64,000 bases of DNA from Oscillospiraceae bacterium (GCA_021201135.1 JAJQGT010000006.1:715710-779709), one strand, 5' to 3'. Counted from the first letter of the stretch, positions 6,307 to 64,000 are shown. Numbers and translations are program-made. The notes: a model not told the origin generated them from the letters alone.

Positions 6307-7614
6307 TCAGAAATCTATTGCCTGCTCATCCAAAAGGAAGTCTTCTATTCCCTCATACAATATTCCCTGCTCATCGTGCCACGGGACAATACTATCCTTA
6401 ACAAGCACAATCTTTTTGAATGAATCATCAATCCTGACAAGCGAGCTTCTTTCCTGCTGTTCCTTTTTCTCATCGGATATTGTCAATGCAGATTGAATAT
6501 AATATCTCCTGCTTCCTTTATTAGCAACAAAGTCTATTTCAAGCTGTGAACGTACACTGCTGCCATTCATATCCTTGTGGTTATACTCAACAACACCGAC
6601 ATCAATATCGAACTCACGGGCAAAAAGCTCGTTATAGATTACATTTTCCATTATGTGACTTTCCTCTTGCTGGCGGAAGTTAAGTCGAGCGTTGCGAAGT
6701 CCTATATCGGTAAAATAATATTTCAGAGGCGTTTCGATATATTTCTTACCCTTGATATCGTAGCGATATGCCTTATTCAAAATAAATGCATCAACAAAAA
6801 AGTCAAGGTATCTTGCAATAGTTGACGACTTTATACTGACGTTTTTGGCACTTTGAAAAGTTCGTGCAAGCTTGCTTGGGTTGGTCAGAGAGCCTATCGA
6901 CGAGGAAACAATATTGAGCAAATCTTCGAGCACGAATTGATCATTAGAAATGCTGTTATGCTCCAAAACGTCCGACATATAAGTTCTCGAGAACAAATCA
7001 CGAAGGTATTTGCTCTTGTCCTCATGGGTTTTCATTGACATAACAAGCGGCATTCCGCCATAGGTGAAATATCCGCTCAAAGCATATCTCTTGTCATCCT
7101 GATAGGCAGAATAGAATTCTTTGTAGGTAAGAGGATTAACCCTGATTTCGTCACCTCTGCCGCGAAATTCTGTCAGAATATCCGAAGAGAGCATTTTTGA
7201 ATTACTGCCGGTGACGTACAAATCAACATTTTTAAGTTTCATCAATCCCAGAAGCACATCGACAAAGCCTATTTTTGCATTCTTGTCATCAATATATGGA
7301 TTCTGAACATCAGAAACTTTCTGTATCTCATCTATGAACAGGTAGCACATTTCCGAATCGCCAACTTCATTAATGCGAGCTCTGAGATATCTGTCCAATT
7401 CAATCGGATTCCGATACTTTGCGTTAGCGATTTCATCAAGAGCAAGCTCTATTATATGCGATTCTGGAACCCCTGACGAGATAAGCCAATTCCTATATAT
7501 TTCAAACAGCAGATATGATTTCCCACATCGCCGGATACCGGTTATAACCTTAATCAGACCGTTTTCTTTTTTGGATATAAGTTTATTCAAATACCGTTCT
7601 CTCCCAATAACCAT
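6307..7614 (-). CDS. AAA+ ATPase with DUF4143-like C-terminal domain
   Basis: VITGIRRCGKSYLLFEI Walker A, YLFIDEIQKV Walker B, YVTGSNSKMLSSD, DFVANKGSRRYYIQSA. Confidence 0.88.
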   Translation of the reverse strand: MVIGRERYLNKLISKKENGLIKVITGIRRCGKSYLLFEIYRNWLISSGVPESHIIELALDEIANAKYRNPIELDRYLRARINEVGDSEMCYLFIDEIQKVSDVQNPYIDDKNAKIGFVDVLLGLMKLKNVDLYVTGSNSKMLSSDILTEFRGRGDEIRVNPLTYKEFYSAYQDDKRYALSGYFTYGGMPLVMSMKTHEDKSKYLRDLFSRTYMSDVLEHNSISNDQFVLEDLLNIVSSSIGSLTNPSKLARTFQSAKNVSIKSSTIARYLDFFVDAFILNKAYRYDIKGKKYIETPLKYYFTDIGLRNARLNFRQQEESHIMENVIYNELFAREFDIDVGVVEYNHKDMNGSSVRSQLEIDFVANKGSRRYYIQSALTISDEKKEQQERSSLVRIDDSFKKIVLVKDSIVPWHDEQGILYEGIEDFLLDEQAIDF

Positions 7615-7718
7615 AGCGTTTCTCCTTTTGTACTATATTTATCGGGATAAAATTGCGTCTATACGCATTTTTATCCCGTTGATATTATAACACCAATATG
7701 CGATATTGTCAAGTAAAA

Positions 7719-7741
7719 AGAGCGACTTTTGCAGTCGCTCT
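7719..7741. terminator. Bidirectional-looking terminator hairpin
   Basis: AGAGCGACttttgcaGTCGCTCT. Confidence 0.6.
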
Positions 7742-7751
7742 ATAGTGTTTG

Positions 7752-8315
7752 TCATAACGTCTTAACCATCGAAATCTCGTCAAGAAGTGTGCCGTCGGCT
7801 AATTTGACGGCGTTCGGCTTGTGGGCGACTTCTTTGAAGCCCATTTTTGTGTAGAGACCGAGCGCCCGGGTGTTGCCCTCGATATAGTCGAGCTCAATCT
7901 GCATGATGCCGCCACGCTCATAGGCATTCTTGATAAGCTCGTTGAACATCGCGGTTCCGATGCCGAGTCCCCAGTACTTTTTGATAAGACCGACGCCGAC
8001 AGTGGCACGATGGGCAGTTTTGAGGCGGGTGTTGTAGCTGATAGAGCAGTTCCCGGCAAGCTCGCCGTCGACGAAGCAACAAATCATCAGCTTGTCGGGA
8101 CTCGAGATATTGTCCCCGATAATCTCTTGCTCCCGCCGTAAGCCCTCCTCGCCTTCCCATCTTCCCGATTCCCTCGGGTCAGACATGAGAAAATCGGTCT
8201 CGGTGGCGGTGGTGAGGAGATAGTCAATCAAAGCCGGGCAATCGGAGAGCTCGGGACTGCGGAAAACGGCTTCGCGACCGTCTTTAAGGGTTATTGTTTT
8301 GGGTGGGAATGTCAT
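7752..8315 (-). CDS. GNAT-family N-acetyltransferase
   Basis: GVGLIKKYWGLGIGTAMFNELIKNAYERG ... IEGNTRALGLYTKMGFKEV. Confidence 0.88.
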   Translation of the reverse strand: MTFPPKTITLKDGREAVFRSPELSDCPALIDYLLTTATETDFLMSDPRESGRWEGEEGLRREQEIIGDNISSPDKLMICCFVDGELAGNCSISYNTRLKTAHRATVGVGLIKKYWGLGIGTAMFNELIKNAYERGGIMQIELDYIEGNTRALGLYTKMGFKEVAHKPNAVKLADGTLLDEISMVKTL

Positions 8316-8338
8316 AATAATCTTGTCCTTTCTTGCGG

Positions 8339-8500
8339 AAACCCCTCCACCACCGACTTCGTCGGCGGTCCCCCTCCCCTTTCAGGGGAGGCTTTTACTA
8401 CTTCTCTCAGAAGCTTTTGGCAGAGCAGCTATAGGCTCCCTCTGAAATGAAGTTCGCAAGCGAACTTCCGGAGCTGTCGCCGCAGGCGACTGAGGGGTTT
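8339..8500. repeat. Family A MITE-like palindromic repeat, full-length copy A1 (162 bp)
   Basis: AAACCCCTC ... GAGGGGTTT termini; shared arms CCTCCACCACCG..CGGCGGTCCCCCTCCCCTTTCAGGGGAGGCTT and GGCTCC..GGAGCTGTCGCC..GGCGACTGAGGGGTTT. Confidence 0.85.
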
Positions 8501-9210
8501 CACCTCTTCTGCCCGTAATACGCATTCGCTCCATGCTTTCTTAAGTAATGCCTGTCGAGGAGCTCCTGTTGCATGGGCTGAAGGTCGGGATTTAGGGCGT
8601 AGGCACGGATTGCCATCTTGGCACATTCCTCTAAGATCACGGCGTGGTGAACCGAGTCGACGGCATTCTTGCCCCAAGTGAACGGTCCGTGAGAATGGAC
8701 GAGGACGGCGGGGATGGCGTCGGGGTCTTTGTCCTTGAAGGTTTCGATGATGACAAGACCGGTGTTCTTTTCGTATTCGCCGGCGATTTCCTCGGGGGTC
8801 ATCTTCCTTGTGCAGGGGATTTCGCCATAGAAATAGTCGCCGTGGGTGGTTCCGAGTGCAGGGATTCCCCTTCCCGCCTGTGCAAACGAGGTCGCATAGG
8901 ACGAGTGGGTGTGGGTGACGCCGCCGATGTTCGGGAAAGCCTTGTAGAATTCGACGTGGGTCGGAGTGTCGGACGAAGGATTGAGGTCTCCCTCGACGAC
9001 TTTGCCATTGAGATCTACAACGACCATGTCTTCCGGCTTCATCACGTCATACTTAACTCCCGAGGGCTTGATGACGACGAGCCCGCTCTCACGGTCGATT
9101 CCCGAGACGTTGCCCCAGGTGAAGGTGACGAGTCCGTACTTCGGGAGGAGCATATTAGCCTCCCAGACCTCTTTTTTCAGTTGTTCCAGCATAACTAATC
9201 TTCCTTTCAA
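8500..9210 (-). CDS. araD: L-ribulose-5-phosphate 4-epimerase
   Basis: [67 protein letters not shown]; alternative start at MLEQLKKEV (9192). Confidence 0.9.
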
Positions 9211-9253
9211 TGGTTTTTATAAGTCAACATTTTGCTTTGATTCTCATATACTG

Positions 9254-9739
9254 TCAATAGTCAACCGTTGCGACGAGTATGCCCTTTTCGTTCGGGAAAA
9301 TGTCGATGGTGGCATAGGATGCCGGAAAACCGTCCTTCGGGAGAGCAAGGCTTCCCGGATTGACATAGTAGATGCCGTTGATGTAGTCGCAAGCCCGGCA
9401 ATGTGTGTGACCATAGACGACGACATCGGCACGGTTCTGGTATGCAAGCTCCTGCAGGCTTTCGAGCCCGTACTTGACGTGGTGGAGGTGACCGTGTGTG
9501 AGAATGATCTTCTTCCCGGCGGCTTCGACCACCTGAATCGGGACGTCATAGCAAGTATAGTCACAGTTACCGGGAACGGTGACGAGCTTGACATCCGGGA
9601 ACATCTCGGAAATATTGCGGACATCTTTCAGAACATCTCCCGCGAAGAGATAGATGTCGGTTGTGTCCTTGGTTCTATTTATCAGATCCTCGACCCGGGC
9701 ATGGAGACCATGGGAGTCGGAGAAGGCAATTATTCGCAT
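9254..9739 (-). CDS. YfcE/MJ0936-type metallophosphoesterase
   Basis: MRIIAFSDSHGL, VPGNCDYTCYD, LTHGHLHHVKYG, YGHTHCRA; start moved inside the ORF-track call to MRIIAFSDSH. Confidence 0.85.
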   Translation of the reverse strand: MRIIAFSDSHGLHARVEDLINRTKDTTDIYLFAGDVLKDVRNISEMFPDVKLVTVPGNCDYTCYDVPIQVVEAAGKKIILTHGHLHHVKYGLESLQELAYQNRADVVVYGHTHCRACDYINGIYYVNPGSLALPKDGFPASYATIDIFPNEKGILVATVDY

Positions 9740-9755
9740 TACAACACCTCTGGGG

Positions 9756-9811
9756 AAACCCCTCCACCACCGGCTTTGCCGGCGGTCCCCCTCCCCTTTC
9801 AGGGGAGGCTT
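9756..9811. repeat. Family A repeat, left-arm-only copy A3
   Basis: AAACCCCTCCACCACCGGCTTTGCCGGCGGTCCCCCTCCCCTTTCAGGGGAGGCTT. Confidence 0.85.
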
Positions 9812-9889
9812 AATTTCACGATTACACACTTTATAATAGCACAATATGAGGTTTTGTGCAACCTAAATTTTAGCACTTGGAGGTGCGAT

Positions 9890-55885: not shown

Positions 55886-55961
55886 GAGCCATTAGCTCAG
55901 CTGGCAGAGCATTTCACTTTTAATGAAAGGGTCTGGAGTTCGATTCTCCAATGGCTCACCA
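55886..55961 (+). tRNA. tRNA-Lys (anticodon UUU), CCA encoded
   Basis: GAGCCAT/ATGGCTC acceptor, D-arm AGCTCAGCTGGCAGAGCA, anticodon loop CTTTTAA, T-arm GAGTTCGATTCTC, ACCA end. Confidence 0.97.
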
Positions 55962-56038
55962 AACAACGAATTAGTCGAACTTGTATTGCTCACAAATGGC
56001 TTCGCTATTACGTTTGAGCTAAAACCCGACTAACAAAA

Positions 56039-56073
56039 AACGGCGTTCCTTTTGGTTCGCCGTTCTTTTTTTA
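56039..56073 (+). terminator. Rho-independent terminator downstream of tRNA-Lys
   Basis: AACGGCGttccttttggttCGCCGTT followed by CTTTTTTT. Confidence 0.85.
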
Positions 56074-56885
56074 TTTTCGCCGTCTGAATGCCAACAAATC
56101 CAGTATTAAAGCGGTTTCTCGGGCTTTTCTCGGGTTCGTTTGATTTTTGAGTTTATAGCGGGTTTTCAACAATATTTTTATCAGATAAAAAGAGCGGGCT
56201 TAACGGTGTTAACAATCAGCTTTGCGGATGATAAAATATACATATCGCCTGTTGCTCTATGCAACAATCCTTTGTAAACTGAGATTTTCGTTGTTGGTAG
56301 CTGCCGAAAGTCTCGGTTTTCTTTTTGTCTACGTTCCTAATATAATTTATGTAGGAACATTCGTTATATTTCATACATATGTTCGTAAAGAAATAGGCTT
56401 CCGGCTCAAAAAAATGCCTACTTTGTCTTTCTTGTTTATTTATTCTTATTTCTTATAGTCTTATATTGGTTGCAAATTTTGCATAGAGCGAAATGCAAAT
56501 TTTGCACCGATAAAAGCATTTTTTGCATTTCGGTACACAACAAATCTTGTACCTATAAGCCTGATTCAGAGCTCGGGCTTGCTGTATCACTCATTGACAA
56601 ATTAAGCCCGACAGAGTATAATATAAATATCGCTATTGTTCGCTGTCTTTGCAATATGTGATATTCTTCACCGCCGGTGCCGTTGTTGTGCGCCGGTCTT
56701 TTCTTTATGTGTTCTTCATAAAACAAAGAAAAGCCACTTTTCCGGCGTTTTCTGCCTCTCAGCGTTTAATTTGCCGCCGAAAGATTAAAAGCCCGCCTGC
56801 GTGTGATTTTGAACGTCTGAGTGCATTTGATGTGAGATATAGAAAAAAGCAGGGTTTTCGCCCTGCCTTCTTTCGTGGGTTCTTC

Positions 56886-57377
56886 TTAGAAAACGTGCTT
56901 TTTTCGGGGACTGGTTCCCACTGAGTCGTACCTCTCACCGTCAATGTCTATGAAGTAATCCCATATCATGCTATTTAGCCTATACTGAAAAGCGTCGTCA
57001 TGCCCGTTAGCTTTACCGTCAACATGTGCTATCTCATGGATAAATACATAGTTGATGAAGTTGTCGGGCTCATTGTCTATAATCTCAATCGAAATTCCTA
57101 TTACACAATGCTTTTTCCCGCCTTCTTCCCACCAAATATTTATGCCGTTTGTATCTTGGTTTTCTTTGGGCTGTTCGCACTGTCTAAATAGGAATAGTCC
57201 CTCGACTGGTATGTCTCCCGGCTCGGGATAATAAAACTTAGCGCAATAGTCCGCCGTGTCTAACAGTTTGTAAAGCTCTTTCTTTGTTATCCCCTTTGTT
57301 TCTGGTATTAAGTCGGGACAATACTTTTTGACTTTCTCCACTGTTTCAAGGTAGCTCAATTTGAAATAGTCAAGCAT
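56886..57377 (-). CDS. Hypothetical zinc-metallopeptidase-like protein (HEXXH)
   Basis: NYVFIHEIAHVDGKANGHDDAFQYRL; start MLDYFKLSYLE preceded by gagaggaggcgaaag. Confidence 0.65.
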   Translation of the reverse strand: MLDYFKLSYLETVEKVKKYCPDLIPETKGITKKELYKLLDTADYCAKFYYPEPGDIPVEGLFLFRQCEQPKENQDTNGINIWWEEGGKKHCVIGISIEIIDNEPDNFINYVFIHEIAHVDGKANGHDDAFQYRLNSMIWDYFIDIDGERYDSVGTSPRKKHVF

Positions 57378-57529
57378 TCTTTCGCCTCCTCTCTGCAAAT
57401 GCTTTGTGCTTCTTTTTCTCTTTTTCTCCTGATTCCTGCCTTGATGAGTTCGCCCAACTGTTGCGAGTAGTAAGCGTTGAATTCCTTTATCAGTGCAAGG
57501 CTTCTTTCGCTTATTCTTTCGTCTGTCAT
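57356..57529 (-). CDS. Hypothetical small protein (57 aa, below ORF-track cutoff)
   Basis: MTDERISERSLALIKEFNAYYSQQLGELIKAGIRRKREKEAQSICREEAKECLTISN; RBS aggaggtttacaag; overlaps next gene start. Confidence 0.65.
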   Translation of the reverse strand: MTDERISERSLALIKEFNAYYSQQLGELIKAGIRRKREKEAQSICREEAKECLTISN

Positions 57530-57586
57530 CTTGTAAACCTCCTAACGTGTCAAGCCTGCTCTTTGGCTTGCTTTTTTACCTTCCAG

Positions 57587-57766
57587 TCAATCTATAACCC
57601 ATTTTTCGCTATCCGGTACGCCCCAGTCGCCGGGCGTGTCATCATCCCATTCAAGAGCTTTTGCATCATCTTCCAACGCTTTGACGGCTTTCATGAATGC
57701 TTCCGGGTCTTTCTTATATGCTTCTATAATCATCTCCATTGTTTCTGTGGGGTCTTTGCCCTTCAT
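57587..57766 (-). CDS. Hypothetical acidic small protein (59 aa)
   Basis: MKGKDPTETMEMIIEAYKKDPEAFMKAVKALEDDAKALEWDDDTPGDWGVPDSEKWVID; RBS gaggtg; the ORF-track start lies in tandem repeats. Confidence 0.65.
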   Translation of the reverse strand: MKGKDPTETMEMIIEAYKKDPEAFMKAVKALEDDAKALEWDDDTPGDWGVPDSEKWVID

Positions 57767-57789
57767 TCTGTCTTCACCTCTCTTTTTTT

Positions 57790-57887
57790 GGAATATTCCA
57801 AATTCTGTTTCACACTTTTTGGAGTATTCCAAATTCTGCTTCATACTTTTTGGAATATTCCAATTTCTTTTTTCCACTCTTTGGAAT
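57790..57887. repeat. 31-bp tandem (iteron-like) repeats, three units plus partial fourth
   Basis: GGAATATTCC / GGAGTATTCC / GGAATATTCC / GGAAT.. begin at 57790, 57821, 57852, 57883; spacing exactly 31 bp. Confidence 0.9.
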
Positions 57888-57898
57888 GCTTTTTAAGT

Positions 57899-58345
57899 TT
57901 ACTTATAGGAATTTTCGGGCGGTTCGTCTGAGTTTTCAGATGCAAGTACCGCATAAAACCAATCTTCTACAATAGAGCTTGACTGTGGCGGGGTTCCTGT
58001 CATAGAACCCTTAAATGCTCCCTCAGTTTTTGCAAGCAATTCGGAGGCTTTCAAGCGGTCGGTCGGTCTTTGTGCGTCATCTCTGAATAGGTCGCTCCAG
58101 AATGCCTGAATTTCGGAGATGTCCGCTATCTTGTCTTTGTCTATTTCCTCTTGTATTTCCTGCAAGTGATTCTGAATATCAACATTTTTCAACAATCTTT
58201 GCCCGATGCTCCCGGCGGTTCTCTGTGAGTAACCGGCGGAAATTGCCGCTTTCGTGGCATTCCCGCTCTTTGCATATTCAAGGCAAAATAGCTCTTGTCT
58301 TCGATTCATCCCCTTAGTTCTCCCTTTTTCTTTTCCGTTTCTCAA
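57899..58345 (-). CDS. Phage terminase small subunit-like protein
   Basis: NRRQELFCLEYAKSGNATKAAISAGYSQRTAGSIGQRLLKNVDIQNHLQE...DISEIQAFWSDLFRDDAQRPTDRLKASELLAKTEGAF. Confidence 0.85.
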   Translation of the reverse strand: MRNGKEKGRTKGMNRRQELFCLEYAKSGNATKAAISAGYSQRTAGSIGQRLLKNVDIQNHLQEIQEEIDKDKIADISEIQAFWSDLFRDDAQRPTDRLKASELLAKTEGAFKGSMTGTPPQSSSIVEDWFYAVLASENSDEPPENSYK

Positions 58346-58710
58346 TCCGTTATCTTATACCATGTTGTTGAGCTCTTCAGCGTGTTTTCGTCCCGATAGC
58401 CTTCAGTTTCCGGCGGTTCCGTCCCTCTGTAGGTCTCAATCAGACCGACGGCTTCAAGCTCTCTTTTCCAGTTCCTGACCGCCTCTATAGAGCACTCCAG
58501 ACCCCGGCTCAATTCCCGGCTTGTCTTGTAAAACCAACAATCACACACGGTGCCGTCTTCTCGACTGTAGCTATTGGTTCCGCTTTTCCGCTCGATACTT
58601 AGCAAGTAACAGTAGAAACAGAATGCGCCCTGCGATATTCGCTTCAGCCGTACGGCTTCAAGAGCTTTCGCCGATACTTTGATATAGTTTTCTGTTGTGT
58701 GTCTGCTCAT
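58342..58710 (-). CDS. Winged-helix replication initiator/regulator-like protein
   Basis: TSRELSRGLECSIEAVRNWKRELEAVGLIETYRGTEPPET...TTWYKITD. Confidence 0.6.
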   Translation of the reverse strand: MSRHTTENYIKVSAKALEAVRLKRISQGAFCFYCYLLSIERKSGTNSYSREDGTVCDCWFYKTSRELSRGLECSIEAVRNWKRELEAVGLIETYRGTEPPETEGYRDENTLKSSTTWYKITD

Positions 58711-58721
58711 GCTCTCACCCC

Positions 58722-59036
58722 CTATAGCAGATGATACCATGTGACCGGCTTTTCACCGATGATTTTGTGTGTCTCGGGGTTCTCAATACCGACTCTTGTC
58801 TCAATCAGACCGGCGGTCTTGAGCTCTTGCTTTGCGCTGTTGATTGTCCGCTTGCTTAGTCCCGTATCATTTGCAAGGTCGCTTTCGGCTCGATAAAACC
58901 ATTTCCCGGCTTTGCAATACTGAAATTCGGCTTTTTTTAAAACCGTATATAGGGAAAGACTCGACGGCTTGATTTTTTTGCTTTCAAGTGTTTCAATCAC
59001 ACCGAAAGGAACCTTGACGAATTTTTCGCCGTTCAT
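58722..59036 (-). CDS. Winged-helix replication initiator/regulator-like protein (related to the preceding gene)
   Basis: AESDLANDTGLSKRTINSAKQELKTAGLIETRVGIENPETHKIIGEKPVTWYHLL. Confidence 0.65.
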   Translation of the reverse strand: MNGEKFVKVPFGVIETLESKKIKPSSLSLYTVLKKAEFQYCKAGKWFYRAESDLANDTGLSKRTINSAKQELKTAGLIETRVGIENPETHKIIGEKPVTWYHLL

Positions 59037-59051
59037 AGCGATTTCCCGCCT

Positions 59052-59360
59052 TTACAATGATATTTGCGTTTTGGCTTCTTCCTCTTGAGCAAGGGCGGTT
59101 TTTGCGGCTCGAATAACTGCGAAAGTTGTGTAACCCCGCCGCTCCATAAGTTGGATAAACCGTCGGAGCTCGGGGAGGTCGCCCGGCTCATGTCTGAAAT
59201 AGCCCTTAGAGCAGGCAAGAATTAAAGCACCGTCTCGCCGTTCGCTCTCAATCTCTTTTCTTAGCTCCCGGAGTGATACACCGGCGATATGTGCCAGTTC
59301 TTCAGCGTGAATAGCGTTGACTTCTCCAGTCGGTAAAATATCATATATCCGATGTATCAA
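59052..59360 (-). CDS. Phage-like hypothetical protein with HTH-like segment
   Basis: EELAHIAGVSLRELRKEIESERRDGALILACSKGYFRHEPGDLPELRRFIQLMERRGYTTFAVIRAAKTAL. Confidence 0.65.
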   Translation of the reverse strand: MIHRIYDILPTGEVNAIHAEELAHIAGVSLRELRKEIESERRDGALILACSKGYFRHEPGDLPELRRFIQLMERRGYTTFAVIRAAKTALAQEEEAKTQISL

Positions 59361-59503
59361 GGGCTTTCACCTCCCTTTTGTAGAGCCTGCTCGGAGTGGG
59401 CATTTTCTTCTCTGCGTGCCTTTACATACTCGATAAGCTCGGGGTATAAAGCCGCCGCCAGAGCTCGGGCTTGCTCTTTGGTTAGTAACTCTTCATCATT
59501 CAT
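59357..59503 (-). CDS. Hypothetical small protein (48 aa, below ORF-track cutoff)
   Basis: MNDEELLTKEQARALAAALYPELIEYVKARREENAHSEQALQKGGESP; overlaps neighbours at both ends. Confidence 0.6.
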   Translation of the reverse strand: MNDEELLTKEQARALAAALYPELIEYVKARREENAHSEQALQKGGESP

Positions 59504-59685
59504 GAGCAAGCCTTGAGTTCTTCGATTGCCTTTGTAAGTATTGCCCGGTGTTCCGGCGTTAGGTCGGTGCGTAACCAGCGGTATATTGTAATCTCTTTAA
59601 TACCCGCCTGTTCGGCGACTTCCCATTGTGTCAAGCCGTTTCTTTTGATTTCGTCCCGGATGTCTGCATTTTTAATTTCTCTCAT
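59500..59685 (-). CDS. Small HTH DNA-binding protein
   Basis: MREIKNADIRDEIKRNGLTQWEVAEQAGIKEITIYRWLRTDLTPEHRAILTKAIEELK. Confidence 0.75.
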   Translation of the reverse strand: MREIKNADIRDEIKRNGLTQWEVAEQAGIKEITIYRWLRTDLTPEHRAILTKAIEELKACS

Positions 59686-59874
59686 GTTTACCTCTCTTTT
59701 CTCTTGATTTAGTGTTTTGATGATGGTATAATAATATTGTCGGGTTATCTTCTCCCGCAACTTCTACATCAATTATAAGGCATTTAGAGGGAGCACTCAA
59801 CGGGTCGATTTTGGAACTCAAAAATCGAAAAATAGGGCGGAAAAGTTTTCTAATATTTTACAGAAAAGAGGGCA

Positions 59875-60783
59875 ATGGTGGAAAATTTAGGCTTTGGATA
59901 TAATCTTGAAATTTACAATTCAGAGATAAAGTACGATGGCAAAGATTATAAATTACCTTTGGTGTGTTCTGCATACGATGATAGGGATAGGCTCTATACT
60001 ACACGACATAGCGCAATTTTAATAGATGCAAGTATTTTAGATATGAGCTTATATCATGATGATTATATCGCATACGGTGAGCCTTTGCTTTTGAATACGC
60101 TGTATGAGTCTGGTTATAATGGAATGTTTCGCACCGGGATTATAAGTGATAAAGTCGTTATAGAGGATAGACTCGCAAAGGCTGGTGTCGCATTCTGTGA
60201 TGGCTCGAATGAATTAACCCGAAAATGGAATAGCTCTTTTTACTTGAAAGTCTTTGTGCCTGATGTGGATTATAGCAAAGTTACGATTTATAAGGGCGTT
60301 CCGTCCGCTTATGCAGTGTGTGATTGTATAGAACATTATGCAATCGCCCATAAATTGAGCATAAAAAAATGTGCATATTGCGGCAAGCCTTTTTTAGCTA
60401 CACATGGAAACGGAAAGTTTTGTAGCCGTATTGGATTTGATGACGAATACCCGGATGAATCGTGCAAAGTTGCATTTCAAAATAAAAAGTCCAAATTGCG
60501 CAAACGGTGTGACAGTTTGATTGAGAAATACGGTAAAAAAGCAAATGATTTCTTTGTAGACGAAAATACCGCAAGTACAATGGCAAGGAAACGTGAGCTT
60601 CACAAAATCGCTTGTGAATATGCAGATTTGCAATTCAGAGTTGAAGAACTGCGAGACAAATATTTAAATAATAATCCCGACCCCTTCGACCTTGAATGGC
60701 TTGAGTTTGAACTTGACTATAGATATAGTGATTTTTCCATGAAAGGCGAAAGTAAAGAAAATATAATCTTGAAAGAGGTCTAA
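59875..60783 (+). CDS. Hypothetical protein with Cys-rich zinc-finger-like segment
   Basis: IKKCAYCGKPFLATHGNGKFCSR ... CKVAFQNKKSKLRKRC. Confidence 0.75.
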   Translation: MVENLGFGYNLEIYNSEIKYDGKDYKLPLVCSAYDDRDRLYTTRHSAILIDASILDMSLYHDDYIAYGEPLLLNTLYESGYNGMFRTGIISDKVVIEDRLAKAGVAFCDGSNELTRKWNSSFYLKVFVPDVDYSKVTIYKGVPSAYAVCDCIEHYAIAHKLSIKKCAYCGKPFLATHGNGKFCSRIGFDDEYPDESCKVAFQNKKSKLRKRCDSLIEKYGKKANDFFVDENTASTMARKRELHKIACEYADLQFRVEELRDKYLNNNPDPFDLEWLEFELDYRYSDFSMKGESKENIILKEV

Positions 60784-60786
60784 CAG

Positions 60787-60969
60787 ATGATAGAAGTATA
60801 CGAAACGAAACACGAAACCCCGGCTTGCTCGATAGATGGCAAAGAGTATGAGGCTATCTTATTAAGGGCATACAGAGCGGGCGCGATTGAGCAGAAATTC
60901 CAGATTATACAGTACTGCATGAATGTATTAGAGCCGTACAACAAAATAACAGTTGAGCATACAGAGTGA
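60787..60969 (+). CDS. Hypothetical small protein
   Basis: Short ORF between 59875..60783 and recombinase, same direction. Confidence 0.55.
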   Translation: MIEVYETKHETPACSIDGKEYEAILLRAYRAGAIEQKFQIIQYCMNVLEPYNKITVEHTE

Positions 60970-60991
60970 ATTTTATAGTGAGGTCTAACCG

Positions 60992-62527
60992 ATGAATGTT
61001 GTTATATACGCCCGATACTCTTCACATAACCAAACAGAGCAGAGCATAGAGGGACAACTCGACTATTGCTACAGATACGCCGAAAGAGAGGGGCACACCG
61101 TTATTGAAGAATATATTGACAGAGCTTTAACGGCTACGTCTGATAAACGCCCGGAGTTCCAGCGGATGATTGCGGATAGTGAGGACAAGAAGAGCAAGGT
61201 TAAATTTGAGGCGGTACTTGTATATCGTTATGACAGATTCAGCCGGAACCAAATTGACGATATTCTCTACACGAAAAAGCTTGCTCAAAACGGCGTTGTT
61301 GTTATCAGCGTAACAGAGCCGATGTCTGATAACCCAGATGACCCGACGGCTCAATTTATGCGTGGTATTATACGGGAAATGAACGCTTTTTATAGCGCGG
61401 AATTAGGGCAAAAGGTTACAAGAGGCATGAATATAAACGCCGAAAAGCACTTATCGAACGGCGGAACAATCCCCTTAGGATTCAAGACGGTTGACAAGGT
61501 CTATGTGATTGATGAAGAAACCGCCCCGATTATTCGGGAAATATTCGATAGAGCTATAAGCGGTGATAGTTATACAGAGATTGCGGATTCGTTAAATGCT
61601 CGGGGTATCAAGACAATTAAGGGCGGAACGTTCGCAAAGGGTACAATCCCGAAAATTCTGCAAAATGTCAAGTACAAGGGAACGTATAAATTCGGCGACG
61701 TTCAAATCCCGGATGCAATACCCAGAATTATTGACGATGAAACATTTAGGAGGGCTCAAGAAGTGATAGAGCGGAACGGCAAAGCTCGCACCCATAGCAA
61801 GGCGAAAGGCAAGGATGAATATTTACTAACTACTAAACTATTTTGTGGTTATTGCCGGGATATGATGGTAGGAATGAGCGGACGCTCTCAGACGGGAGCC
61901 GTTCACCGTTACTATGCGTGTAAAAATGCAAGAAAAGGGACGTGTCACAAAAAACACGTCCGCAAAGAGTATATAGAAGATTTAGTAATCAGTGCGTGCA
62001 AAAAGCTTTTGACAGAAAGCAGAATAAAGCAGATTTCAAGGGAGCTCGAACAATTCGGAAAACGCAATTTTGAGTCAACCTGCCTTTATTCTTTACAGAA
62101 ACAGCAAAAAAAGCTTGAAAAGCAAAAGAACAATCTTTTAGATTCTATTTCAGACTCTGACCTGCCGGAACTGCGAAAACCGTATCAAGAAAAGCTATTG
62201 CAAGTAATGCAAGAAATAAAAGTGATAGAGCAGGCTATAGAAGAGGAAAAAGAAAACGATGTCAATCTATCAGCCGATGAAATATCAGATTTCCTGCATA
62301 AGATAAAAAGCGACTGCACAAATTCCATGAAGTCGAAAAAAGCCTTGATTTCAACATTCGTGAATAGGATATACCTATACGATGACAAAATAACGATTGT
62401 GTTCAATTCAAGCGATAAGGATGCTACAATCGATTTCACGGAATTTGAAGAGCCCGAAAAGCCCGATGAAACCTTGATTTCGGGCAAAAGTTCGACTTTA
62501 AAAATTGATGCTTCACCACAAATGTAA
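60992..62527 (+). CDS. Large serine recombinase (resolvase/integrase)
   Basis: MNVVIYARYSSHNQTEQSIEGQLDYCYRYAEREGHTVIEEYIDRALTATSDKRPEFQRMI; YRYDRFSRN; zinc ribbon KLFCGYCRDMMVGMSGRS...YYACKNARKGTCHKK. Confidence 0.95.
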   Translation: MNVVIYARYSSHNQTEQSIEGQLDYCYRYAEREGHTVIEEYIDRALTATSDKRPEFQRMIADSEDKKSKVKFEAVLVYRYDRFSRNQIDDILYTKKLAQNGVVVISVTEPMSDNPDDPTAQFMRGIIREMNAFYSAELGQKVTRGMNINAEKHLSNGGTIPLGFKTVDKVYVIDEETAPIIREIFDRAISGDSYTEIADSLNARGIKTIKGGTFAKGTIPKILQNVKYKGTYKFGDVQIPDAIPRIIDDETFRRAQEVIERNGKARTHSKAKGKDEYLLTTKLFCGYCRDMMVGMSGRSQTGAVHRYYACKNARKGTCHKKHVRKEYIEDLVISACKKLLTESRIKQISRELEQFGKRNFESTCLYSLQKQQKKLEKQKNNLLDSISDSDLPELRKPYQEKLLQVMQEIKVIEQAIEEEKENDVNLSADEISDFLHKIKSDCTNSMKSKKALISTFVNRIYLYDDKITIVFNSSDKDATIDFTEFEEPEKPDETLISGKSSTLKIDASPQM

Positions 62528-62601
62528 GAAGTATCCAGTTATGGGTACTTCTTTTTTATAAAAAATAAAAATGGGTCTGTACAGGATGAGTGTCAGACGA
62601 A

Positions 62602-62919
62602 GTGTTAGAAAAGCCCTGCAAAAATAGACAAAAAGGTAAAAGAAAAAGCCCGAAGATGGCTTGCCTTCGAGCTTTGTAAGGTGGTGGAGCATACGGGATT
62701 CGAACCCGTGACCTCCACACTGCCAGTGACCTGGGATAAAAATTATTTCATCTTTTTTGTAACCTTTTCTTCCCTTTTAAATCCTCGTAAAACCGCAGTA
62801 AATCAAGGTTTTATCGATTTATCTGCGTAAAAATCCGCAGTTCAATGCAAATCCTCAAAATTTCATCAACCCAGAAAAAGTGTTAGAAAAGTGTTAGAAA
62901 CTTTACCGTGTTAAAAAAG
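62602..62919. repeat. Four dispersed GTGTTARAAA direct repeats (62602, 62880, 62891, 62908) flanking the tRNA-Ala fragment
   Basis: GTGTTAGAAAAG / GTGTTAGAAAAG / GTGTTAGAAACT / GTGTTAAAAAAG. Confidence 0.7.
62682..62727 (-). pseudogene. 3' fragment of tRNA-Ala(GGC), probable att-site remnant
   Basis: Minus strand: CTGGCAG-TGTGG-AGGTC-ACGGGTTCGAATCCCGT-ATGCTCCA-CCA: anticodon loop through CCA; D-arm and 5' acceptor missing. Confidence 0.8.
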
Positions 62920-63165
62920 AAGTTACAGAGGAAGAATAATATATAAGCTAACTTTCAGAAATCATGAACATAGTGTCTCAAAAGCTTGCTTTATTTTCGG
63001 CGGTGTTGTATAATATTTGATGGGTAGTTTTACATGAATGATTGAACCGTCAGGATGGCGGATTGAATTTTGAACTAATCAGACGATTTTTGATAAGATT
63101 GAAAACAGGAAATAATTGTGCTATAATATATTTCAAGGCTAATCATAGAAAAGAAGGTATCCCAA

Positions 63166-63684
63166 ATGGCTATGCTGCAAGATTTAATTGCACAGATTGA
63201 AGACCCGGATTTACGGGAGCGGTTTGCAAAGGAAACAGACAAGCTGACGAAGCAGAAAAAGTTTGGGCTTGTATTCGAGGAACATCTGCCTGAATGCACG
63301 TCTCTTTACGAAGTGCCGGTTAAGGTAGGCTCGGTTGTTGCAAAGAAGCTCGGTGCCGTCAGCGATACTTACGTTGTTTTATCCATCCGGGATGGCATGG
63401 CAAAGTGCATCCGCAAGGAATCAAAAGAGCTTGAAGAAATACCTTTATGCGACCTTGTTTCCGTTGCGGAATTCGGCGAGCCGATTTATCCATATCTCAA
63501 GCCGGTTGACAGTGTCTGCAATGCGCCCGACAGCGACCTCTGGCACACGTTGATTGAGGCGGACAACTACCATGCCTTACAGTTACTCGAATATCTTTAT
63601 GCCGGCAAGGTAGATTGCATCTACATTGATATTTATCCCGCATATTTGATACAATCCAACGGAACTGTGCGCGAGTGTGCATAG
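63166..63684 (+). pseudogene. N-terminal fragment of a DNA adenine methyltransferase (Mod-like), disrupted at the catalytic DPPY motif
   Basis: ...LWHTLIEADNYHALQLLEYLYAGKVDCIYID then IYPAYLIQSNGTVRECA* where DPPYNTG would be expected. Confidence 0.7.
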
Positions 63685-63898
63685 GGGTGTGCAAAGAGAT
63701 TTTAGGGTGTGCAGGAAGGGTTCAAGGTGTGCAGGTGGTCGGGAGTTCCCGGCTTTTATTATGCAGACACATACTTGCTCGTGCGGTCGCCGTAATCGCG
63801 GAGTGCCTGATACATACGGGTGTTGTCCATGAATGTCCAGACCATTATCTCTTTGCCCCTTGAGTAAATCCACTATAATCACCTCCAGATGGACATGA

Positions 63899-63928
63899 AA
63901 AAAGAGCGGCTGGTTAAGTCGCTCTTTT
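63899..63928. terminator. Terminator-like hairpin
   Basis: AAAGAGCGGCtggttaaGTCGCTCTTT. Confidence 0.6.
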
Positions 63929-64000
63929 ATAAAGTTATAAAGTTAAAAAACAGGACTTTTGCGGGTCAGGCATTTAATTGCTCAACTACATTTAAAATGA

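Follow-up and report, generated by a model that had tools for sequence, protein, structure and literature searches.

A phage satellite organised like a phage-inducible chromosomal island (PICI) very probably occupies the 3' end of a tRNA-Lys gene in an Oscillospiraceae bacterium. The window, meaning the whole 64,000-nucleotide stretch that was analysed, is the end of a contig (C9) of a 2.3-Mb genome, and the element within it carries a large serine recombinase (LSR) and a small terminase (TerS). A reading from the sequence alone had proposed a satellite. This proposal is supported by compact kin of the TerS that are devoid of a large terminase (TerL), by independent recurrence of the LSR arrangement in loci L124 and L181, and by precise ends with an empty site. 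The element would most likely spread by hijacking other phages.

Integration site and neighbouring DNA

The element is inserted at the 3' end of the tRNA-Lys(TTT) gene that ARAGORN predicts on the plus strand at 55886-55961. A 6-bp identity, TCACCA, is common to both ends and forms the attL core (55956-55961, plus strand) and the attR core (62513-62518, plus strand). In nucleotide comparison with sister species G666, homology of the left flank stops at 55961 and picks up again at 62513, and the empty site of G666 reads ...GGCTCACCACAAATGTAAGAAGTATCC. Flank homology to genome G273 likewise stops at the left end of the element. Alignment of the junctions with the empty site gives an element of 6557 bp (55956-62512) and corrects the earlier bounds of 55962-62640 to 55956 and 62512/62518, the right end having been placed about 125 bp too far. 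Integration is credited to the LSR because it is the only recombinase inside the element; by recombination inside TCACCA, it evidently put a 6557-bp circle into the tRNA-Lys 3' end, which is evidently restored by the element's own ACCA.

The attP site rebuilt in silico by joining the ends is CTTTAAAAATTGATGCTTCACCAAACAACGAATTAG. Its arms, AAGTTCGACT and AGTCGAACTT, are perfect 10-bp inverted repeats equidistant from the TC inside TCACCA, a symmetry equalled in 2 of 5000 shuffles. The integrase gene (60992-62527, plus strand) spans the att junction, and its final codons and stop are host DNA. The integrated gene encodes a protein of 511 aa, whereas the circle is predicted to encode one of 532 aa; that this shortening on integration is relevant to the control of direction is speculation. 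The tRNA-Lys terminator, identified from the empty site and a terminator scan, is host DNA displaced by the insertion to 62526-62553 (plus strand) within a host stretch from 62519 to about 62557. An inverted repeat with a T-run inside the left end (56037-56072, plus strand), read from the sequence and absent from the terminator-scan predictions, is a candidate replacement.

About 900 bp at the left end contain no convincing genes. This stretch includes a perfect 12/12 match to a sigma-70 promoter (56594-56622, plus strand) with a terminator-like hairpin downstream (56849-56866), and it is possible that a small RNA or a short transcript antisense to the HEXXH gene described below is produced. 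Rfam matches within the element are all below threshold.

The tRNA-Ala fragment that was earlier taken as a border of this element belongs to a neighbouring one. The fragment (62682-62728) corresponds to the final 47 nt (3' end) of a tRNA-Ala(GGC) gene that is intact in sister genomes, and 62682-64000 is, on comparative evidence, the start of a second integrative element running off the contig end. A 139-bp copy of 62590-62728 occurs in the same genome at C26:6298-6436 and is probably the other end of this second element, which also carries a truncated gene, possibly for a DNA methylase (63166-63684). A tmRNA match at 62682-62900 was rejected, as it is weak and truncated and overlies the tRNA-Ala 3' end.

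Gene content and proposed life cycle

ORFs and profiles bear out a minus-strand operon that diverges from a plus-strand pair. In order of transcription, the minus strand encodes a small HTH protein in a Cro/AlpA/Xis-like position (59500-59685; profiles and relatives), a 48-aa ORF with relatives in the L124, L139 and L333 satellites (59357-59503), a phrog_2113 protein common to many small Clostridia elements (59052-59360; profile and genome comparison), two winged-helix proteins (58722-59036 and 58342-58740), TerS, a 59-aa acidic protein with no family by profile (57587-57766), a 57-aa ORF with no family (57356-57529) and a HEXXH protein (56886-57377). The plus strand encodes a DUF6076-like Cys-cluster protein (59875-60783), a 60-aa ORF (60787-60969) and the LSR, which matches phrog_95 at 5e-114, a score far beyond chance.

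TerS is the only packaging gene detected by profile in the element. It matches Pfam Terminase_2 (3e-22) and phrog_51 (2e-28), scores that are also far beyond chance. Its identity therefore stands as first proposed; its start does not, because ATG 58309 is most likely and TTG 58345 had been given, so that the gene covers 57899-58309 (minus strand). As noted earlier, structural genes are absent: profile searches between the ends matched no TerL, portal, capsid, tail or lysis family, and thus none of the TerL, portal, capsid and tail genes that a serine-integrase prophage has between its att sites. Profiles recognised no capsid-size gene, and neither a relaxase nor a transfer gene is present in the element. 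Three 31-bp direct repeats with the palindromic core GGAATATTCC are located at 57785-57885 and are candidate origin iterons, an operator or a TerS-binding site. Repeats resembling these are found in locus L187 (6700-6818), where a palindromic 17-nt repeat occurs three times (TGTTCAGAAATTGAACA and a variant).

The two winged-helix proteins are paralogues (28%, 3e-9) and match the N-termini of phage replication initiators with weak profile scores, which weakly suggests that they might act in replication; a scan of viral contigs with a winged-helix protein gave no match. The DUF6076 match of the divergently transcribed plus-strand protein is below cut-off, and its AlphaFold model has a pLDDT of 37. 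Relatives of this protein adjoin LSRs (L139, L333) and tyrosine integrases (L370, L371), and because its divergent place is kept beside both integrase types, it is, by position only, likely to be the master regulator. The HEXXH protein, whose earlier assignment was upheld by profile, is zincin-like (SprT/WLM-like), with a weak fold match to minigluzincins (E 0.02). It is conserved beside TerS in related satellites, and among the loci compared its matches are confined to TerL-less, satellite loci. It is the least understood part of the element.

By analogy, we infer that the element would be packaged by a helper phage. The PICI model (PMC6092414) is followed here for repression, helper-driven release, replication from the repeat region and TerS-directed packaging. 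The DUF6076-like regulator and the divergently transcribed small HTH protein would hold the element silent until a helper phage lifts repression, whereupon the LSR would excise the element, aided by a directionality factor that comes from the satellite itself or from its helper. The replication-initiator-like winged-helix proteins would then copy the element from the repeats at 57785-57885, and TerS would partner the helper's TerL and bring satellite DNA into helper particles. What the HEXXH protein does is a guess: it probably hinders the helper or targets a regulator.

The element might be a genuine satellite that has lost its activity, a sub-case of the satellite reading and not another origin. 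The gene-poor left end and the occurrence in a single genome are consistent with decay. However, neither att site is damaged, the genes for the integrase, TerS, the HEXXH protein and replication are all intact, and their starts and stops overlap; decay is rather unlikely.

Relatives among Clostridia

Relatives were collected in two ways: 394 genomes of the order were searched with a composite query, and 84,980 species genomes were scanned with a TerS alignment. Genes on related loci were called with a simple script that takes the longest ORFs; the relatives come mostly from metagenome assemblies, and the hosts are named as in the records. Nucleotide searches of 398 family genomes for further copies of the exact element or for spacers returned mainly LSR-gene matches and a few short, chance-like ones, and the exact element is known as one copy in one genome only.

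The expectation that the same gene set would occur elsewhere without structural genes is borne out by L124/L181 (Oscillospiraceae SIG636), in which LSR and TerS recur independently. Here the LSR is 47% and TerS 43% identical; the TerS and integrase proteins of the nearest full relative are 43-47% identical to those of the window element. The genes comprise the LSR, an HTH regulator, a small HTH protein, an ArpU/RinA-like activator (phrog_36), a glycosyltransferase, TerS and a HEXXH protein, with no TerL. No empty site for L124 was found in its genus, and where L124 ends on the right is unsettled, since L180/L223 share cargo genes located beyond TerS. The TerS-HEXXH block of L124/L181 is also present on a short contig (L179). 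In Lachnospiraceae, L187 and L188 combine TerS, HEXXH, ArpU-like and glycosyltransferase genes with a tyrosine integrase. The family 2 glycosyltransferase gene lies between the ArpU-like activator and TerS (L124 10584-11495, L187 9034-10007, L188 5400-6401) and is possibly surface-altering cargo.

L180 and L223 carry a tyrosine integrase, an ArpU-like gene, TerS and then a Phage_portal_3 protein (9e-64 in L180), again with no TerL, and may represent a satellite that brings its own portal. TerS is directly 5' of the portal gene in both (L180 4624-5973, L223 4853-6208), and an AAA ATPase is also encoded.

A second TerS type (phrog_2538) accompanies an LSR in two related genomes. L333 has an LSR, DUF6076, a VapE-type primase-helicase and this different TerS (6e-8), and L139, from the same genus as the window element, has an LSR, a DUF6076-like protein, an AAA_25 protein and a phrog_2538 TerS. 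L370 joins a TerS of the phrog_2538 type to a tyrosine integrase (by motif), a DUF6076-like protein, a small HTH protein and a phrog_2113-like protein. Thus, the combination of a compact integrative layout, a packaging gene and a lack of virion genes recurs independently in L124/L181, L333, L370 and L187/L188.

Integrase type varies within a single genus, where L139 has an LSR and L371 a tyrosine-type integrase adjoining tRNA-Ser. The terminal 101-aa protein of L371 is 95% identical to that of L139, and therefore integrases have been exchanged between satellites that are otherwise related. Judged from these comparisons, the LSR of the window element is a swapped module and does not mark a new class; the swap within one genus makes integrase type a poor criterion for classing satellites. 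An LSR search of viral contigs found mostly unrelated LSR elements.

Many related LSRs in these genomes lie in elements with no detected TerS. This could mean that the element is an ordinary LSR-borne genomic island or a transposon-like element whose TerS has a regulatory role or is a passenger, with another transfer route, such as conjugative mobilisation, or none. However, such an island sits poorly with the lack of relaxase and transfer genes, with the grouping of TerS with replication-initiator-like genes and its conservation in relatives whose integrases have changed, and with the filling of one role by two unrelated TerS types. We consider it very improbable.

The nearest relatives of TerS might have been expected inside full prophages, but they lie in compact TerL-less elements instead. 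In a ranking by similarity to the window TerS, satellites come first, and most lower loci have a TerL-sized or TerL-matching gene beside TerS. L125 was excluded from the TerL-less count because its contig ends right after TerS. On the TerS tree, the satellite label requires 2 changes versus 7.6 in shuffles and is thus clustered; a single clade of satellite TerS proteins including that of the window is not rejected (p-AU 0.43), but is also not demonstrated. A single TerS protein used as query had no matches in viral or genome contigs, whereas a three-member TerS alignment did. TerS matches in 60 family genomes were set aside, as they are mostly weak and the best occur in phage-like contexts without the other genes of the element.

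These relatives bear on what had been held to be the main alternative, a remnant left when deletion stripped an LSR prophage of its structural and lysis genes but spared the integrase, the early genes and TerS. LSR phages do exist, as a fragment in the same genome (L317) and among related viral contigs (L233), and the TerS belongs to a phage family. However, neither end is damaged and each lies at a clean att core, the sister species has the empty site, all main ORFs are open, the nearest TerS proteins have no TerL neighbours, and other genera harbour the compact layout with other cargo (L124/L181, L333, L139). A deletion would need to have been repeated with the same outcome, so a remnant is quite improbable.

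The satellite reading can be widened, tentatively and with somewhat less than even confidence, to a widespread undescribed family of Clostridia satellites built of exchangeable modules, in which the HEXXH protease is satellite-specific. The modules would be an LSR or tyrosine integrase, a DUF6076-like or HTH regulator, a winged-helix, AAA or VapE replication gene, and one of two TerS types. In the window element, the location of attP in the integrase gene, with its cut from 532 to 511 aa, could bias against excision until a helper appears. If active, such satellites would provide Clostridia with a hidden means of transferring genes and of interfering with phages. TerS without TerL, the HEXXH protein and the DUF6076-like regulator provide a marker set for finding them.

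Described satellites, CRISPR evidence and possible helpers

The element resembles PICIs and SaPIs, which are known from Gram-positive cocci, in having an integrase at one end, divergent regulators, a replication module, TerS, a specific att site and no structural or lytic genes. SaPI integrases are of the tyrosine type, whereas that of the element is an LSR. The element also differs in its size of 6.6 kb against about 15 kb, in the lack of a capsid-size gene by profile and in its Clostridia host. PICIs are defined by a conserved organisation (integrase, replication module, master regulator), a unique att site that prophages never occupy, a size of ~12-15 kb, genes orthologous to known PICI genes, and phage-dependent induction, packaging and high transfer (PMC6092414). 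ORFs and profiles reveal this organisation in the element, with the replication module assigned from weak scores and the regulator from position. Because of its size of 6557 bp, the element is called PICI-like and is not filed as a PICI.

The PLE satellites of Vibrio cholerae also use a large serine recombinase, and a protein of phage ICP1 serves as directionality factor in their excision (PMC6002521). They are about 18 kb (PMC10803314). In contrast to PLEs, with their V. cholerae host and ICP1-specific gene set, the element has a Clostridia host and TerS kin in Clostridia elements, where the nearest proteins found lie. PICMIs of Vibrionaceae are likewise very small satellites with few genes, but the type PICMI carries int, alpA and prim beside genes whose function is unknown (PMC10803314), whereas the element has TerS and a serine integrase. 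Candidate Mycobacterium PICIs are also computationally predicted islands with phage-type integrases, some of them missed by SatelliteFinder, but they are defined by an integrase and a capsid gene (PMC10654092), and the element has no capsid gene.

The combination of TerS and a serine integrase was initially put forward as an unusual or undescribed layout. An LSR in a satellite is already known from PLEs (PMC6002521), but a literature search found no account of Clostridia satellites with serine recombinases or TerS, although such elements may already have been detected in the main survey (PMC10085698). The satellite literature found deals with cocci, Enterobacteria, Vibrio and Mycobacterium.

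A CRISPR array in the sibling genome G670 (L161, about 7187-9865 of G670:C6) has 38 exact copies of the repeat GTCTCCCTCCCCACGGAGGGAGTGGATTGAAAT, and one of its spacers, 35 nt long, matches the element at 100% (55980-56014, minus strand). Therefore, a relative of the element has been met as an invader within the genus. The motif adjoining the protospacer is CTC (array strand as read), which fits the YYC motif reported for type I-C systems. The remaining spacers of the array could point to helpers and further satellites.

The genome that carries the element contains possible helpers of the satellite. One is a compact block on contig C4 (L316, about 20.0-27.7 kb) in which genes for TerL, a portal, a capsid and scaffold-like and lysin-like proteins are accompanied by few tail genes; this block may be a remnant or a small phage-like element. 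The other is the LSR phage fragment L317, located on contig C13.
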